Below are positions 32,583 to 50,935 of a stretch of DNA of 64,000 nucleotides, in pieces; position 1 is the first letter of the stretch; each line of letters opens with the position of its first letter. The stretch spans positions 1 through 64,000 of the forward strand of contig JAJZJL010000005.1 in the NCBI GenBank assembly GCA_021810145.1, read 5' to 3'. A program made the translations under genes and the position numbers. The stretch comes from Planctomycetota bacterium. GTDB lineage: Bacteria; Planctomycetota; Phycisphaerae; WQYP01. A model generated the notes under the pieces. That model was not told where the DNA came from. It did no database searches and saw only the letters and a list, made by a program, of their open reading frames with translations.

Positions 32583-33728
32583 ATGCAAAAGTTGTCTCAT
32601 CGGCGTTGCGGCAAGTTGCCGGCCACACGGTATGCGCGCATGGCCCAACGGGCTTTTATGGCATTGATCTGGTCATTACCGGGATTAGTACCGTTTGCCA
32701 CCACGCTGCCCGCCAGTGCGCAGATACGGGTCGTAGGTTCGCGGCGCGTCCTGCCCGCACCGGTTGATTCAGGTGCCATGTCCCTGCACACTTCGGGCAG
32801 ACAACTGCTTTACGCCAATGGTAAACTCGCCGTTCTCCACGGTGTTTCCATGGCCGCAAAACCCGGTACACCGAACTGGACGCATATTCGGCAATCTGTT
32901 GCGGTAGCCGTTAAAACATGGCACAGCCAACTCATTGTTCTGCCACTTTCACAGGATGCGTGGTTTGGAAAATGGCCGCAATCACACCACGGCGGAGCGG
33001 AATATCGTCATACGGTTGATGCGCTCGTGCAATATTGTGCCGCGCATCATGCATATATAAACTTGACCCTGCAATGGACGGATATGGGGCGTTGGGGAAA
33101 ATATCCCGGCCGACATCGCATGCCGGATGGCAACTCGGTGCGATTCTGGCGCTCTGTGGCGGGGCGCTATAAGCATTATTCCAATGTGCTGCTGGGATTG
33201 TTTTCATCGCCCAATGGGGTGGATTGGCATACCTGGCTTTATGGCGGCGTATGCACGGAAGAATCCGCCAGCCGCGTTATCGCCTATCGTGCGGCCGGCA
33301 TGCAGGAACTGTACAACACGGTCCGGGCGGCGGGCGCGGATAATGTTGTGGTAGTGCCCGGATGCCGTAATGGTTATGACCTTTTTGGCGTGCTCCATGG
33401 CTTTGCCATTCGCGGGCATAATGTGGCATACGCCACCAGGGTGTATCCATGGATGAAGAACTGGAATGTTAACTTTATACTGCCCGCCAGGCGTGTACCG
33501 GTGCTGGTGGCACAATGGGGTGAATCATCAAAACAATTGACGTATGACCGCCGGCTTGGTCACGTAATGATGGTAAATAGACTCAGTTGGGCAGCGGCCA
33601 ATTTTGGTATCGGTCCGCCCTGGCCGGCATTGCTTCAAGGTTGGAATTATAAGCCGACAAAACTTGGCGCAATCGTGAAAGCCGCCATGGCGTCAGCGGA
33701 TCGCGGGCATCAGGGGGACCGTCAATGA
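32583..33728 (+). CDS. GH5-fold protein with substituted catalytic residues (pseudo-glycosidase)
   Basis: Homologous along its length to the downstream GH5 but NEP is FSSPNG, DEFG is AQWG, and active-site His positions are Q/R; overlaps the next gene by ATGA. Confidence 0.75.
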   Translation: MQKLSHRRCGKLPATRYARMAQRAFMALIWSLPGLVPFATTLPASAQIRVVGSRRVLPAPVDSGAMSLHTSGRQLLYANGKLAVLHGVSMAAKPGTPNWTHIRQSVAVAVKTWHSQLIVLPLSQDAWFGKWPQSHHGGAEYRHTVDALVQYCAAHHAYINLTLQWTDMGRWGKYPGRHRMPDGNSVRFWRSVAGRYKHYSNVLLGLFSSPNGVDWHTWLYGGVCTEESASRVIAYRAAGMQELYNTVRAAGADNVVVVPGCRNGYDLFGVLHGFAIRGHNVAYATRVYPWMKNWNVNFILPARRVPVLVAQWGESSKQLTYDRRLGHVMMVNRLSWAAANFGIGPPWPALLQGWNYKPTKLGAIVKAAMASADRGHQGDRQ

Positions 33729-35035
33729 GAAGTTTTCGTGGCAAGCAGATAAACTCCGGCAGGCTCCGCCATGGCAGGTATGGCGTTGCCGTAATGGCCC
33801 CGATGCCAGCCGGCGCATTCATGTGCCGGTCCGGTCGCCGCCATGAACATCGTTGTGCTTCCCTGTTTGGCGTGCTCGGCCAGGGCTGTAGCCGTATCAG
33901 CGGCGAAGTATGTGCGGGTTGGCTGTCCCGGTTCGCCGGGGCGCCGGACGCATGTGGTATGTGCGTGGCCCTGGTATTGTTTGTTATGGGTGGCATTGCT
34001 GCGGCACCGGTGGGTGCGGCAACGGAAGCGTCTATTGTGACGTTGCCCTGTCCGTACGCCATTGCCGATATGCAATTGCATACGCTGGGCAATAAATTGC
34101 TGAATCAGCAGAATAAAATCGTGGTGCTCCATGGGGTGGACTTGCCGAGTCTGGAATGGATGAATCGAGGCGATCATATTCGACGATCGATGCGGGTGGC
34201 CATCATGCAATGGCACTGTCAGATCATCCGCATTCCCACATCGGTCAATCGTTGGTTCGGTCAGGCCCCGGGACAGAGTCATGGCGGGCGGATATATCGG
34301 CATATTGTGGATCAACTGGTCCGGATCGCGGCGCGGCATCATGTGTATGTGGTGCTGGATTTGCATTGGAATGATATGAACCGCACCGTGGCGGATATCG
34401 GGCAGCATCGTATGCCGGATCATACCTGTGCGCGCTATTGGCGGTCCGCAGCGCGACGATATATGGATTATCCAAATGTGTTTTATGACCTGTACAACGA
34501 GCCGCACGGAATAAGCTGGATCACCTGGCGCGACGGAGGCATTTGTACAGGTGAAACCAAAGCCACGGTGGTGACGTATCGGGCCGTTGGCATGCAGCGA
34601 CTCTATGATGTCGTCCGACACACCGGTGCCGACAATATTGTCATCATCGGCGGAATCAGTTGGGCCTATGACGAATTCGGCGTAACGCATGGTTATGCTA
34701 TCGCCGGGAAAAATATTGTGTATGATTGTCATGTATATCCATGGAAGTCGCACTGGAAGCATAACTTTGAAAGTGCGGCAAAACGCGTTCCGCTGATTTT
34801 TGACGAATTCGGCGGTACCGGGAAACAATTGACGTTTGGTAGAAAGGTTATCGCGTTTGCGGCGGCACATCATATCAGTTGGTGCAGTTGGTCGTTTCAT
34901 ACGCAGGCCGGGCCGGTACTTATAAAGAATTGGCACTATCAGCCGTCAAAATTTGGTGCGCTTATAAAGTCCGCGTTGCAATCAAGTGATGCGACGGGTC
35001 ATAAGGCTGCGACCGCGGATGGCACCGGAAAGTAG
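33725..35035 (+). CDS. GH5-family glycoside hydrolase (endo-mannanase/cellulase-like)
   Basis: VVLDLHWND, VFYDLYNEPHGISW (acid/base E), YDCHVYPW, PLIFDEFGG (nucleophile E). Confidence 0.85.
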   Translation: MRSFRGKQINSGRLRHGRYGVAVMAPMPAGAFMCRSGRRHEHRCASLFGVLGQGCSRISGEVCAGWLSRFAGAPDACGMCVALVLFVMGGIAAAPVGAATEASIVTLPCPYAIADMQLHTLGNKLLNQQNKIVVLHGVDLPSLEWMNRGDHIRRSMRVAIMQWHCQIIRIPTSVNRWFGQAPGQSHGGRIYRHIVDQLVRIAARHHVYVVLDLHWNDMNRTVADIGQHRMPDHTCARYWRSAARRYMDYPNVFYDLYNEPHGISWITWRDGGICTGETKATVVTYRAVGMQRLYDVVRHTGADNIVIIGGISWAYDEFGVTHGYAIAGKNIVYDCHVYPWKSHWKHNFESAAKRVPLIFDEFGGTGKQLTFGRKVIAFAAAHHISWCSWSFHTQAGPVLIKNWHYQPSKFGALIKSALQSSDATGHKAATADGTGK

Positions 35036-42322: not shown

Positions 42323-43867
42323 TCAGTTGCTGGCTGTGGATGCGGGAATGGACCTCATATCCTTATCCAGTGCGTCCGCGGCGATCCAGCCGGACATCAG
42401 GGCCATGGGCATGCCTGGGCCGGGATGAGCCGAGCCGCCGGCAAAATATAAGCCTTTGACATCGCGGCTGCGGTTGGCCGGCTTGAATGCTCCATTGAAG
42501 CGGCCATGGCTGGCCAGGCCGTAAATGGCCCCGTTCCATACATGGTAGCGATCACGAATATCTTCCGGGGTTAATGCGCGCTGTGACACAATTCGGGATT
42601 CCAAATCGGTTAATCCGGCGGTGCGGGCAAGCTTTTCAAAAATAACGCGGCGATAATCCGGAAGCATCTTTTTCCAGTCCTGACCGGGGCGCAGATACGG
42701 CGTATGCACAAGAATATACAGCGCCTCGCCGCCAGGGGGCGCTACCGTCGGATCGCTGACGGCCGGTGCGCACAGATAACACGTCGGATCGGCGGCGGGA
42801 ACGCCGCGCTGATAAATATCGTGAAATTCCTCTTCCGGATTACGGGAAAATACAAAATCATGGTGCGCCAGTTGATCGTAGCGTTTATTTAATCCCAGAT
42901 ATAAAACCACGCCCGAACATGCCGGCACATAATTGCGGCGTTTGTGAAATTTTCGCGAGGGTTCTTCCGGCAGCAATTCTTTGTGCGTTAAAACCACATC
43001 CGAATTGCTTATCACGGAAGATACCGGAAATTCACGGCCTTCGGCGCTTACCACGGCGGTAACCCGGCTTCCGTCGGTGGCGATTTGTTTTACGGGACAG
43101 CCGGTGTGAAATTCAACATTCAATCTCCGAGCCAGCTTTTCCAGAGCTTCAGGCACCGCCCGGGTGCCGCCGCGGGGATACCATATCCCCTCACTGATCT
43201 GCATATCCGCAATGCCCATAAGCACCGCAGGGGAAAGCGCCGGAGCCGATCCGACATACTGCGTGAAGTGATCCACCATTTGCGCAATGCGCGGCTCATG
43301 AATGATGGATCGCACGGTATCGCCCAGCATGCGGCCAAGCTTCATATTCATCAGATCACGCAATACAGAAAGTTGCAGGCTGCCCTTGAAATCAAATGTA
43401 TCACCGATCGAACCGATGGATTTCCAGAAAAAATATTTATCCGAGGCGTCGCGCATGAGTTTGGATTGCCGCAGCATTTGCGCATATTGCATATCGGCGG
43501 ATTTGCCCGGAGCGAATGTATTGATATTCTCCGCCATTTTCTGCGGATCTTCGACCAGATCCAGAATACCGCCGCCATCAAAAAAGCATCGCCACTGCGG
43601 ATCCAGTCGCACGAGATGCAATGCCTCTTCGAGCTGCACCCCGGCTTCGGAAAAAATGCGGCGCAGAACAAAGGGCATCAGAAGAATGGTTGGACCCATG
43701 TCAAAGCGGAATCCCGCATCTTTGTGTACCGCCGCCTTTCCTCCCAGATAGTCATTTTTTTCAAATAGAGCCACGCGGTATCCGCGACCCGCCAGTGTGC
43801 ATGCCGCAGCCAGTCCGCCCAGTCCGCCGCCGATAATTCCAACAGGGTGCTTATTGGTGTTTCCCAT
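42323..43867 (-). CDS. Phytoene/diapophytoene desaturase family (CrtI/CrtN-like)
   Basis: VGIIGGGLGGLAAACTLAGRGYRVALFEKNDYLGGKAAVHKDAGFRFDMGPT and FAGGSAHPGPGMPMALMSG. Confidence 0.9.
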   Translation of the reverse strand: MGNTNKHPVGIIGGGLGGLAAACTLAGRGYRVALFEKNDYLGGKAAVHKDAGFRFDMGPTILLMPFVLRRIFSEAGVQLEEALHLVRLDPQWRCFFDGGGILDLVEDPQKMAENINTFAPGKSADMQYAQMLRQSKLMRDASDKYFFWKSIGSIGDTFDFKGSLQLSVLRDLMNMKLGRMLGDTVRSIIHEPRIAQMVDHFTQYVGSAPALSPAVLMGIADMQISEGIWYPRGGTRAVPEALEKLARRLNVEFHTGCPVKQIATDGSRVTAVVSAEGREFPVSSVISNSDVVLTHKELLPEEPSRKFHKRRNYVPACSGVVLYLGLNKRYDQLAHHDFVFSRNPEEEFHDIYQRGVPAADPTCYLCAPAVSDPTVAPPGGEALYILVHTPYLRPGQDWKKMLPDYRRVIFEKLARTAGLTDLESRIVSQRALTPEDIRDRYHVWNGAIYGLASHGRFNGAFKPANRSRDVKGLYFAGGSAHPGPGMPMALMSGWIAADALDKDMRSIPASTASN

Positions 43868-43943
43868 TAACATTGTTTGTATCTATACCTCAAGAAATGA
43901 ACATATTTGTTTGAACATTCTGTCCATACATCACACGATGGCC

Positions 43944-45467
43944 TCAAAGTGATTGCCGCTTTTTATCTCCTGCTTCCGTATATCCGTTGCGATTCGGGTT
44001 TCGGGTGCCGCCAAACCCCATGAAGATGCGTGTCAGCGTTAATAATGCCCGCAGGCGGACCGTCAGATCAGCCCCATGGAGAATCTGCAGTAACAACAGC
44101 AGTATCTGCTGGTCGTGGTGTTCCGGTTTGCGCAGATGATGCAATGTTCGACCGGTGCGCTCGACGATCACATTCGCCCAGGTCATGGCCAGCAATCCTT
44201 CCGCTGACCGGGTAGTGCCATAGCCGCTTTCTCCACGCGCGGTGAAAGGAACTTCCGGATGCGCGGTTGGCGCAATGAGATCATTGATGACGATACACCC
44301 CGCATCCAGCCGGCGCGCCAGAGAATTGGCGGGCACGGAATCACCGAAAATAGTGGCGCTTAACCGGAACGGGCAGGCGTTGTACGCACTGAGAGCTTCA
44401 AGCAAATCCGCTACCACATGTACACACAGTACCGGCGCCATGACATCCGCCGACATAATGGGCATATCCGGAGTCGTATGCATGAGAATCAGGGGACCAA
44501 GCAGTTTATTTTCCGATATGCTTCCCACCGCCAGACGCGCTCCGCGCGTCAATGCATCGCGCACCAGCGGCATGAGTTGAACGGTTGCGGATTCGGATAA
44601 TGTGGAGAGCTTGTAATCTTCAAAGCGGCTCATCAGCAGGTGTTCAAATTTTTCCAGCATGGACCGGATGATCAGCACCCGGCGGGGAGCGATACACGTG
44701 GCACTGCCATTAAATTCCAGGCCAAACTGCAGCAAAGCCACCGCCCGGTACAAATCCGCACTGGATAAAATAAATACCGCATCTGAACCGGAAAGTTCCA
44801 TAATCGCCGGTCGCGGTGGCTTTTCCGCCATCGATTGTGCGATCGCTTTTCCGGCAGTAGCCGAACCGGTCAAAACCACCTGATCCACGCCCAGCGCAAT
44901 GGCCTCATGAACCGCGTCATTATCTTCCGGCAGCAGATGAATGAGCGTTGGATCAATCCCGCTGGTGCGCAGCAGGCTGATCAGCGCCATTGCCGCAGGT
45001 GTGCCGTCCTTACCCGGTTTTAACAGCACCGCGTTGCCCGCAACCAGAGCCTGAAGTACCTGAACTCCCGGTAGAAACAGCGGGTAGTTGGATGGTCCGA
45101 CAATTAACACCAACCCATGCGGACGATGGTCCACCGTGATACGGAGGCCTGAAAACAGGGGAGATCGGACGCGCGGCCGCAAAATCCGCTCAGCACGGCG
45201 CAGTAAAAATCGTGCCGCATCGGCCAGGGGAATGATTTCAGCCGCAATCGACTCAATACTCGTGCGCCCGGGCAGGTGGGACAACGCATGAATAAATCGG
45301 GACGGACTGGCCGCCAGGCTGTGGCGAAATTTTGTAATGGCATAGAGACGATGCTCAACGGTTTGCCGACTCCATTGAATCTGCGATGCGCGAGCTTGCG
45401 CCACACTGAGTTCCAGTGGTTGCGTGGCGTTGAATCGCTCGGAAAATGGCTGTTCAACAGGTTCCAT
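43944..45467 (-). CDS. Aldehyde dehydrogenase (carotenoid-aldehyde dehydrogenase candidate)
   Basis: PSNYPLFLPGVQVLQALVAGNAVLLKPG, MELSGSDAVF, FNGSATCIAPRRVLI; between two carotenoid desaturase genes. Confidence 0.85.
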   Translation of the reverse strand: MEPVEQPFSERFNATQPLELSVAQARASQIQWSRQTVEHRLYAITKFRHSLAASPSRFIHALSHLPGRTSIESIAAEIIPLADAARFLLRRAERILRPRVRSPLFSGLRITVDHRPHGLVLIVGPSNYPLFLPGVQVLQALVAGNAVLLKPGKDGTPAAMALISLLRTSGIDPTLIHLLPEDNDAVHEAIALGVDQVVLTGSATAGKAIAQSMAEKPPRPAIMELSGSDAVFILSSADLYRAVALLQFGLEFNGSATCIAPRRVLIIRSMLEKFEHLLMSRFEDYKLSTLSESATVQLMPLVRDALTRGARLAVGSISENKLLGPLILMHTTPDMPIMSADVMAPVLCVHVVADLLEALSAYNACPFRLSATIFGDSVPANSLARRLDAGCIVINDLIAPTAHPEVPFTARGESGYGTTRSAEGLLAMTWANVIVERTGRTLHHLRKPEHHDQQILLLLLQILHGADLTVRLRALLTLTRIFMGFGGTRNPNRNGYTEAGDKKRQSL

Positions 45468-48884: not shown

Positions 48885-49025
48885 GTAAAAAATATTTTTT
48901 TTACATCGATGCACCCAAAATTCTACTAATAGTGGTTCTCAGTGTTTTGAAGCTACTGGTTGATGTTATTATGGGGCGTGTGAATGTTGAATCCCATGAT
49001 TGCCCCTAATGTGGAGCAAAAAGTA

Positions 49026-49053
49026 TTGACTTTCCCACAAGTTTTTATATGCT
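49026..49053 (+). promoter_or_regulatory. Sigma70-like promoter of mraZ
   Basis: TTGACT (49026-49031) - 16 bp - TATGCT (49048-49053), 57 bp upstream of the mraZ ATG. Confidence 0.6.
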
Positions 49054-49109
49054 CTAAGCCGATGAAGACAGGAGCAAGTTTTCTGTGTGCTTGAAGGTTG
49101 GAAGCTTGG

Positions 49110-49592
49110 ATGTATCTGGTTGGTTCATACGAGCACGTAATCGACGCCAAGAATCGCCTGGCGATTCCATCGGCGCATCGGCAGGAAGTGCCCGAATCAC
49201 CATCCGGAAAGAAGCGATTCTATGCCCGGCCAGTTGAAATTCGTGAGCCCAGCGGTGGCAAGCGGCGTTTTGTGGAACTGATCCCCGAGCCGGTTTTTTT
49301 AGCTCTTGCGGAGAAGGAAAAAAAAGAAGACAGCCTGGAAATGCCGGTTGAAGAACAGGATCGTCAATTAAGCCTGTTCGCAGGCGTCAAGATTCTGGAA
49401 ATCGACGAGCAGGGCAGGGTTGTCATGCCCGATGATTTTCTGGATCGTCCGGATAAAAAGCCCAGCCGCTTTGCCATCAATATCCTGGGCCGTGATGTGG
49501 TACTTGCGGGCGTTGGTTCCCGCATACAGGTATGGAACGCGGAAGAATATCATCGCCGCTTTGATGGAGCCGGAAGGGTTCGGGCGGCGTAA
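49110..49592 (+). CDS. mraZ: Transcriptional regulator MraZ
   Basis: MYLVGSYEHVIDAKNRLAIPSAHRQEV...ILEIDEQGRVVMPDDFL; precedes rsmH. Confidence 0.92.
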   Translation: MYLVGSYEHVIDAKNRLAIPSAHRQEVPESPSGKKRFYARPVEIREPSGGKRRFVELIPEPVFLALAEKEKKEDSLEMPVEEQDRQLSLFAGVKILEIDEQGRVVMPDDFLDRPDKKPSRFAINILGRDVVLAGVGSRIQVWNAEEYHRRFDGAGRVRAA

Positions 49593-49599
49593 CAATACT

Positions 49600-49932
49600 C
49601 TCTGGAGCGCTTCTCGCGGTCAAGGATGACCGCTGAGACCAGGCTCCCCACGCAGGGATGCGTGTGTATGAAAGGCTTCTGCTGTCGCATGGATGCGACA
49701 TAATAAGAAGCCGACACAGGGCGAATTGCGGTACGGACAGTTCATGGAAGAACTGTCCGTACCGCCGCCCCGAAACAATGGCCAGGTGGCTGAACAGGAT
49801 GTTCGGTTCCCGCACGCCACCAACTCAAAGGACTGAGGCTTTGGCGCCGCTGGTCTTCAAGGATGAACATGCTCGGGCCATGGAAGGCATGGCAGGGACA
49901 CGTACCGGCCAGTCGTGTCCCTGTCTTTTTTT
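49600..49932 (+). ncRNA. Putative CsrB/RsmZ-like CsrA-binding sRNA (array of GGA-loop hairpins with intrinsic terminator)
   Basis: Hairpin loops AAGGAT (49622-49627), AGGGAT (49654-49659), ATGGAT (49689-49694), ATGGAA (49744-49749), AGGAT (49796-49800), AAGGAC (49828-49833), AAGGAT (49859-49864), ATGGAA (49880-49885), then a terminator. 5' end is approximate. Confidence 0.75.
49893..49932 (+). terminator. Rho-independent terminator of the putative sRNA
   Basis: CAGGGACACG (49893-49902) - 11 nt - CGTGTCCCTG (49914-49923), then TCTTTTTTT. Confidence 0.9.
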
Positions 49933-50017
49933 CGATTTTTCGGTCGGGCAATGGTCGTTCCACGCCCCGACTTGTGAGTTATCGGATTCAGGTCTTCGGC
50001 GTGAGCCGTTGCTGCAG

Positions 50018-50935
50018 ATGGATACGGCACAACATGGTCACGAACCTGTCCTGCTCAATGAAGCAATGGAATTGCTGTCTCCGCAATCCGGCGACATCGT
50101 CCTTGATTGTACAACCGGCCGCGCGGGACACGCTCTGGCACTGGCTGGGAAAATTGGCGCAAATGGCACCCTGCTGTGTCTGGATGTTGATCCGGTTAAT
50201 CTCACGTTTGCAAAGCAGCGACTGGATAACGCCGGACCAACCTGCCGCTTTTTTCAGGCTAATTTTGCGCAGCTCCCGGACGTACTGGATGCCGCTGAGA
50301 TTCCGGCCGTCGATGTAATTTTGGCAGATCTCGGTGTTTCCACCAACCAGATGTTGTCAGAGCAATATGGGCTGAGTTTTACGCACGATGGTCCGCTGGA
50401 TATGCGGTTGGATCCGCAGTTGGATCGCACGGCGGCTGATCTAGTCAATGACCTGCCGGAAAAAGATCTGGCTGATCTGATTTTTCAGAACGCGGAAGAA
50501 CGGTATTCGCGGCGAATTGCGCGAAACATTGTACAAGCTCGCAAACTGAAAAGAATTGCCACGACCGCCGAATTGGCAAGGCTTGTCCGTGCGTGCTTGC
50601 CACCGGCGCGATTCGGTCAAATTGATCCGGCCACTCGTACTTTCCAGGCGATACGCATGGAAGTGAATCATGAACTCGACAACCTTGCAGAGTTGTTAAA
50701 AGTGGCACCCGGACGGCTTAAACCCGGAGGGCGAATCGGGATCATCAGTTTTCATTCCGGTGAAGACCGACTGGTCAAACAGGAATTCAGACAATGGGCT
50801 GCTGATGGAAAATGTGACGTATTAACGTCCAAGCCCGTTGTGCCGACAGAATTTGAAATGACTTCCAATCCGAGGAGCCGAAGCGCTAAATTGCGGGTTG
50901 CTCGTTTGCGGATGGAAGAAAAACAGGCTTGGTGA
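50018..50935 (+). CDS. rsmH: 16S rRNA (cytosine(1402)-N(4))-methyltransferase RsmH (MraW)
   Basis: HGHEPVLLNEAMELLSPQSGDIVLDCTTGRAGHALAL; DVILADLGVSTNQM; GRIGIISFHSGEDRLVK. Start set at 50018 because the upstream ORF extension lies in the structured RNA and past a terminator. Confidence 0.92.
   Translation: MDTAQHGHEPVLLNEAMELLSPQSGDIVLDCTTGRAGHALALAGKIGANGTLLCLDVDPVNLTFAKQRLDNAGPTCRFFQANFAQLPDVLDAAEIPAVDVILADLGVSTNQMLSEQYGLSFTHDGPLDMRLDPQLDRTAADLVNDLPEKDLADLIFQNAEERYSRRIARNIVQARKLKRIATTAELARLVRACLPPARFGQIDPATRTFQAIRMEVNHELDNLAELLKVAPGRLKPGGRIGIISFHSGEDRLVKQEFRQWAADGKCDVLTSKPVVPTEFEMTSNPRSRSAKLRVARLRMEEKQAW

Follow-up and report, generated by a model that had tools for sequence, protein, structure and literature searches.

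The DNA analyzed here, a stretch of 64,000 nt (hereafter, the window), comes from a 4.47-Mb metagenome-assembled genome of an uncultured planctomycete in 200 contigs, whose closest relatives with a name are assemblies of Planctomycetota and Phycisphaerae. On its plus strand, the coding sequence of mraZ (49110–49592; Pfam MraZ, PF02381, 46 bits), whose place upstream of rsmH is conserved in the family, is followed after a gap of 425 nt by rsmH (mraW; 50018–50935; PF01795, 296 bits). The gap has a G+C content of 57% and carries, on the plus strand, an array of hairpins that present GGA in their loops, closed by an intrinsic terminator that stands some 85 nt short of rsmH. Another hairpin-forming stretch (49933–50017) occupies the remaining space before rsmH, for which no promoter was detected.

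A preliminary description of this interval had read it as a CsrB/RsmZ-like RNA that acts as a sponge for CsrA. CsrA/RsmE dimers bind ANGGA displayed in hexaloops, and sponge sRNAs consist of serial GGA hairpins followed by a Rho-independent terminator. All eight GGA-loop hairpins that it listed are present on the plus strand, within a base or two of where it placed them. Hairpin 1 (49604–49647) has an outer GGAGC/GCTCC helix and an inner stem with the loop AAGGAT; hairpin 2 (49649–49664) is CACGC-AGGGAT-GCGTG; in hairpin 3 (49674–49712), GGCTTCT/AGAAGCC encloses TGTCGC-ATGGAT-GCGACA; and hairpin 4 (49728–49765) is a perfect 16-bp stem with the loop ATGGAA. They are followed by hairpin 5 (49788–49808), a stem around CAGGATG, a site of the CsrB type (CAGGAUG); hairpin 6 (49824–49837), CTCA-AAGGAC-TGAG; the weak hairpin 7 (49856–49867), TTCA-AGGA-TGAA; and hairpin 8 (49877–49888), GCC-ATGGAA-GGC, which belongs to a family-wide 3′ module. 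The GGA loops stand as described, but not as strict hexaloops: several fold as 4-nt loops with a closing A-U pair, and the fifth hairpin folds as a 3-nt loop. The last two small hairpins (3–4 bp) do not both appear in the single-sequence minimum free energy fold; both appear in the consensus fold.

The region as a whole is unusually stable. The minimum free energy of 49590–49940 (351 nt) is −160.1 kcal/mol, compared with −120.6 ± 5.3 for shuffled sequences (z = −7.4), a value reached by 0 of 100 shuffles. Among 1,820 stretches of 350 nt taken from both strands of the window, GGA loops are most numerous in those over the array, at seven, and two thirds of the stretches have none. A second GGA-loop-rich stretch, at about 43491–44050 on the minus strand, proved to lie at the start of a coding sequence that has a glycine-rich motif; it lacks ANGGA loops. 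The window also contains a GC-rich region with a very stable fold (33671–34090; −162 kcal/mol per 350 nt) and no GGA loops.

The array region was recovered by DNA match in seven of the eight genomes of the genus; the eighth is 79% complete, and no full rsmH was obtained from it. In the alignment of these seven sequences, 97% of cells pair, and 15 of 96 pairs have changed on both sides, against a shuffled mean of 5.7 and with 0 of 500 shuffles reaching the observed number, a figure that is not a probability, given the relatedness of the sequences, from which the structure itself was inferred, but with which the slid structures, at 1–3 such pairs, agree. Six of the changed pairs fall in hairpin 1 (helices 1 and 2), one in hairpin 2, two in hairpin 3 (helices 4 and 5), four in the 16-bp stem of hairpin 4, where the loop GGA is unchanged in 7/7 sequences, and one in hairpin 5; the terminator stem has both-sides changes as well. 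The stem of hairpin 6 is nearly invariant within the genus. Hairpins 7 and 8 have no covariation support, their stems barely varying across the genus (that of hairpin 7 is invariant), and CCANGGANGGC, at hairpin 8, occurs in 13/13 aligned family sequences. Relatives thus show both conserved loops and compensatory stem changes, features on which the preliminary description had made its reading depend.

Across the family, 3–8 GGA hairpin loops occur in every one of the 24 readable mraZ–rsmH gaps (269–503 nt), for which shuffled means are 0.3–1.6 and 0 of 40 shuffles match the observed count in any genome. The reverse strand of the same gaps has no GGA loops, except for a single one in one genome. 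Both the length of the array and the number of its GGA loops vary across the family, and multivalency is kept. That the hairpins arise by chance in a GC-rich gap has nothing in its favor beyond the G+C content of 57%; with all 24 family members exceeding all of their shuffles, and with compensatory changes in the stems, the chance of this is negligible, and these two results already refute it.

The intrinsic terminator (49891–49932, plus strand) was claimed in the preliminary description and is borne out by eye: 12-base arms at 49891–49902 and 49914–49925 are followed by seven T, with a conserved GCCAG in the loop region. A simple terminator scanner missed it because the loop is 11 nt long. 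Of 18 family genomes searched with a covariance model of the last hairpin and the terminator (R1), 17 have exactly one copy, at the mraZ–rsmH locus; elsewhere in the class the model gives marginal matches only (E 8e-4 to 8e-3). The source genome, searched for a second array via this 3′-module model only, likewise has the one copy. A single copy per family genome and marginal matches beyond argue that the terminator module is a trait of the family; a GGA-hairpin array after mraZ is more widespread.

In 73 further mraZ–rsmH gaps of the class, we counted 213 GGA loops versus about 65 expected from shuffles, with 9 on the reverse strand, and 24 of these gaps exceed all 20 of their shuffles. Arrays, though weaker ones, are present in several other families of the class: f6, f10, f14 and f19 contribute most, and f9 and f24 each have one conspicuous genome; the mraZ–rsmH gaps of families f2, f5 and f22 have no GGA loops. 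Regions 5′ of rsmH without a detected mraZ, from other Planctomycetes and candidate-phylum bacteria, have 0–3 GGA loops and almost never exceed shuffles. Two of these regions are exceptions: L059, with 3 loops against a shuffle maximum of 2, and L050, with 6 loops, the latter too near a contig end to tell whether mraZ is present. Some class genomes also have a second, more distant rsmH-like gene, e.g., L036 (G013 C90). In the class's other families a terminator was seen behind the array just once or twice, so that the array may be an internal operon element there.

An alternative is that CsrA binds the array for local ends, by protecting or destabilizing the mraZ mRNA or by governing terminator read-through into rsmH, and not for cell-wide titration. 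The position of the array inside a conserved gene pair and beside a terminator, the lack of a detected promoter for rsmH and the arrays of other families, most of which have no clear terminator behind them in the gap, are all in keeping with such a role. However, one or two sites would suffice for a switch, as against eight here; no antiterminator pairing is clear by eye; and array length and loop number vary while multivalency is kept. We regard a purely local role as unlikely, if the most serious of the alternatives.

TTGACT-16-TATGCT (49026–49053, plus strand), upstream of mraZ, is the only promoter-like match within 48900–50100; its hexamers, with the second in the form TATnnT, are conserved in 7/7 genus members, and several other genera have comparable elements at roughly this position upstream of mraZ. 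This element is the likely start of a transcript comprising mraZ and the array. A crude consensus scan of the last 250 nt of mraZ finds no promoter-like site in 23 of 24 family loci and one weak match in the other, and within the genus none is found in the 3′ part of the gene. For most of the family, the distance from the mraZ stop codon to the first GGA loop is 4–49 nt; in a few members it is as much as 121 nt. The conserved unit is the mraZ 3′ region together with the promoter-like element upstream of mraZ.

Here we depart from the preliminary description, which had proposed an independent RNA: because the conserved promoter-like element lies upstream of mraZ, none was seen between, and in many cases no more than about 50 nt separate the mraZ stop from the first hairpins, the array is probably the 3′ untranslated region (3′UTR) of mraZ, or an RNA derived from it, rather than a free-standing gene. 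The mraZ transcript would run through the array, which is possibly released from it by processing. A free-standing CsrA-titrating sRNA, with the same function on a different transcript and, in the manner of CsrB or RsmZ, a promoter of its own that lies within the end of mraZ, would explain the discrete terminator and the compact 330-nt array. It is nonetheless distinctly improbable, somewhat more so than the local role, given that the consensus scan shows a promoter-like site, a weak one, in the last 250 nt of mraZ at one of 24 loci, and that the stop codon and the array are often less than 50 nt apart. On both sides of the mraZ start codon (window 49090–49115) there are GGA motifs (TTGGAAGC, TTGGATG), kept across most genus members, which make a possible candidate CsrA site on mraZ itself.

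What the loops would bind is indicated by their sequence. In 28 arrays (24 from the family and four outside-family loci), no loop trimer is as common as GGA, which occurs in 167 of 286 loops, and the pooled context reads C(.64) A(.72) N GGA U/C G(.74). The repeats of CsrB read CAGGAUG, with which this context agrees. It agrees also with the CsrA site from SELEX, quoted in the literature as RUACARGGAUGU. The context C-A-N-GGA-[U/C]-G is, at the level of sequence, a match to the high-affinity site of CsrA, and binding of the array by CsrA is the strongest reading. That the hairpins serve another GGA-loop binder, or are DNA sites for MraZ, draws on the neighboring gene, as MraZ is a DNA-binding regulator of its own operon. 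But known MraZ sites lie in the mraZ promoter and the array lies downstream of mraZ; moreover, compensating stem pairs mark an RNA, the reverse strand is without such loops, and the site consensus is that of CsrA. This explanation is very improbable.

The preliminary description would have taken a genome without csrA as counting against its reading; the source genome has two csrA genes. The gene is found in 27 of 28 family genomes, the lone exception being 76% complete. A further 21 Planctomycetes-related genomes were tested and every one has it too, so that the presence of csrA alone does not distinguish array-bearing genomes. CsrA-1 aligns with E. coli CsrA without gaps over 57 residues and keeps L4, R6 and R44, which we take to be residues of the RNA-binding surface. 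The second, divergent paralogue (L002 1501–1785) is retained in nearly all family genomes. The Shine-Dalgarno region of csrA-1 (GTCAAGGAGTTGAT; L001 1655–1675, minus strand) can fold into a small hairpin with GGA in its loop, which would fit repression by CsrA of its own translation. Adjacent paired CsrA-domain matches in one open frame (G046 C475, G048 C76, G051 C34, G044 C8) suggest tandem, two-domain CsrA proteins in some Planctomycetes.

By score, the array belongs to no existing Rfam family, a check that the preliminary description had proposed: nothing reaches a gathering score, and CsrB/RsmB (RF00018) has no match in the window. A scan of the window and 27 relative loci gave, besides tRNA and chance matches, only sub-threshold hits to CsrB, RsmW, RsmV and RsmY. 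The best match of the array is RsmW (RF02809; 30 bits, E 0.004, cut-off 52), which covers hairpins 3–4 only. In the relative G013, the CsrB model and the array align over their full length, with a score of 37 bits (E 4e-7) against a cut-off of 71 bits. A whole-genome scan of 160 genomes with the CsrB model returned none over the cut-off, a weak negative in that its strict filters also lost the G013 match; weak matches elsewhere in it (L218, L219) have folds without GGA loops and were set aside as noise.

The resemblance to CsrB/CsrC and RsmX/Y/Z (clan CL00106) lies in serial (A)NGGA hairpins, CAGGAUG-type sites, an intrinsic terminator and the presence of csrA. Those RNAs, however, belong to Gammaproteobacteria, whereas the array is from another phylum, sits after mraZ and shows no separate promoter; its mode of action appears to be that of CsrB/RsmZ, while by score it falls outside those families. 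RsmW of Pseudomonas aeruginosa is an RsmA-binding RNA derived from a 3′UTR (PA4570), as is proposed for the array, and is a direct precedent for a 3′UTR sponge (PMC4950607; PMC7821165), although its host gene differs and 3 of its 7 GGA are on outer loops. The mraW RNA motif of Actinomycetales (RF01746) is a structured RNA candidate named after the same gene but is of a different phylum and family, and no match to it reaches gathering score anywhere in the window, or E 10 within 49400–50100. Searches of open-licence PMC papers turned up no CsrA sponge reported from Planctomycetes or Phycisphaerae.

Taken together, the sponge reading is well supported: the array, the loops, csrA and the conserved locus all stand; the independence of the RNA is not supported. 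We put a probability of about 0.7 on the interval encoding a CsrA-binding RNA that is the 3′UTR of the mraZ mRNA and titrates CsrA. Transcription would begin upstream of mraZ, cross mraZ and some eight ANGGA-type hairpins, and end at the terminator, with roughly 85 nt left to rsmH. As a CsrA dimer occupies two loops at a time, every such transcript, or a stable piece processed from it, would remove several dimers from their mRNA targets whenever the promoter of the cell-division cluster is active. The net effect, we infer, is CsrA titration.

In the FliW–CsrA partner switch of Bacillus and Campylobacter, the antagonist is a protein tied to flagellin. The source genome is similar in that csrA-1 lies directly downstream of a fliW-like gene, and differs in that its FliW is weak and flagellin was not found. 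Strong FliW matches (119–124 bits) occur in exactly the four flagellin-bearing genomes of the family; in the remaining family genomes flagellin was not found, and FliW is weak (28–52 bits) or was not found, a pattern of which incompleteness of the assemblies may explain some absences but hardly the whole. Where FliW is weak or missing, csrA is kept, and so is the array wherever the gap is readable. Strong FliW, flagellin and the array occur together in G013 and G015 (arrays L032 and L034). One hypothesis is that RNA titration takes over from FliW. The gene fliW is absent from Gammaproteobacteria, the hosts of CsrB/RsmZ, whereas in the array-bearing family it is present or decayed. BarA–UvrY, which drives CsrA sponge RNAs, is strongly anti-correlated with FliW (PMC4682653), and according to a 2020 review the joint action of FliW and sRNAs in any species remains to be determined (PMC7652899).

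A broader proposal, to which we give slightly less than even odds, is that Phycisphaerae possess an old, class-level RNA antagonist of CsrA in the mraZ 3′UTR, through which the activity of the cell-division cluster promoter would set the level of free CsrA; it would act beside an intact FliW in flagellated genera and be the main CsrA antagonist where flagella and FliW have been lost. The CsrA RNA sponges established to date are those of Gammaproteobacteria, which lack FliW. The array suggests that CsrA is under RNA control beyond that class as well, with a tie to the cell-division gene cluster. Because G013 and G015 combine a strong FliW match, flagellin and the array, and many relatives keep csrA and the array without flagellin or an intact FliW, the question of whether FliW and sRNAs act together becomes directly testable.
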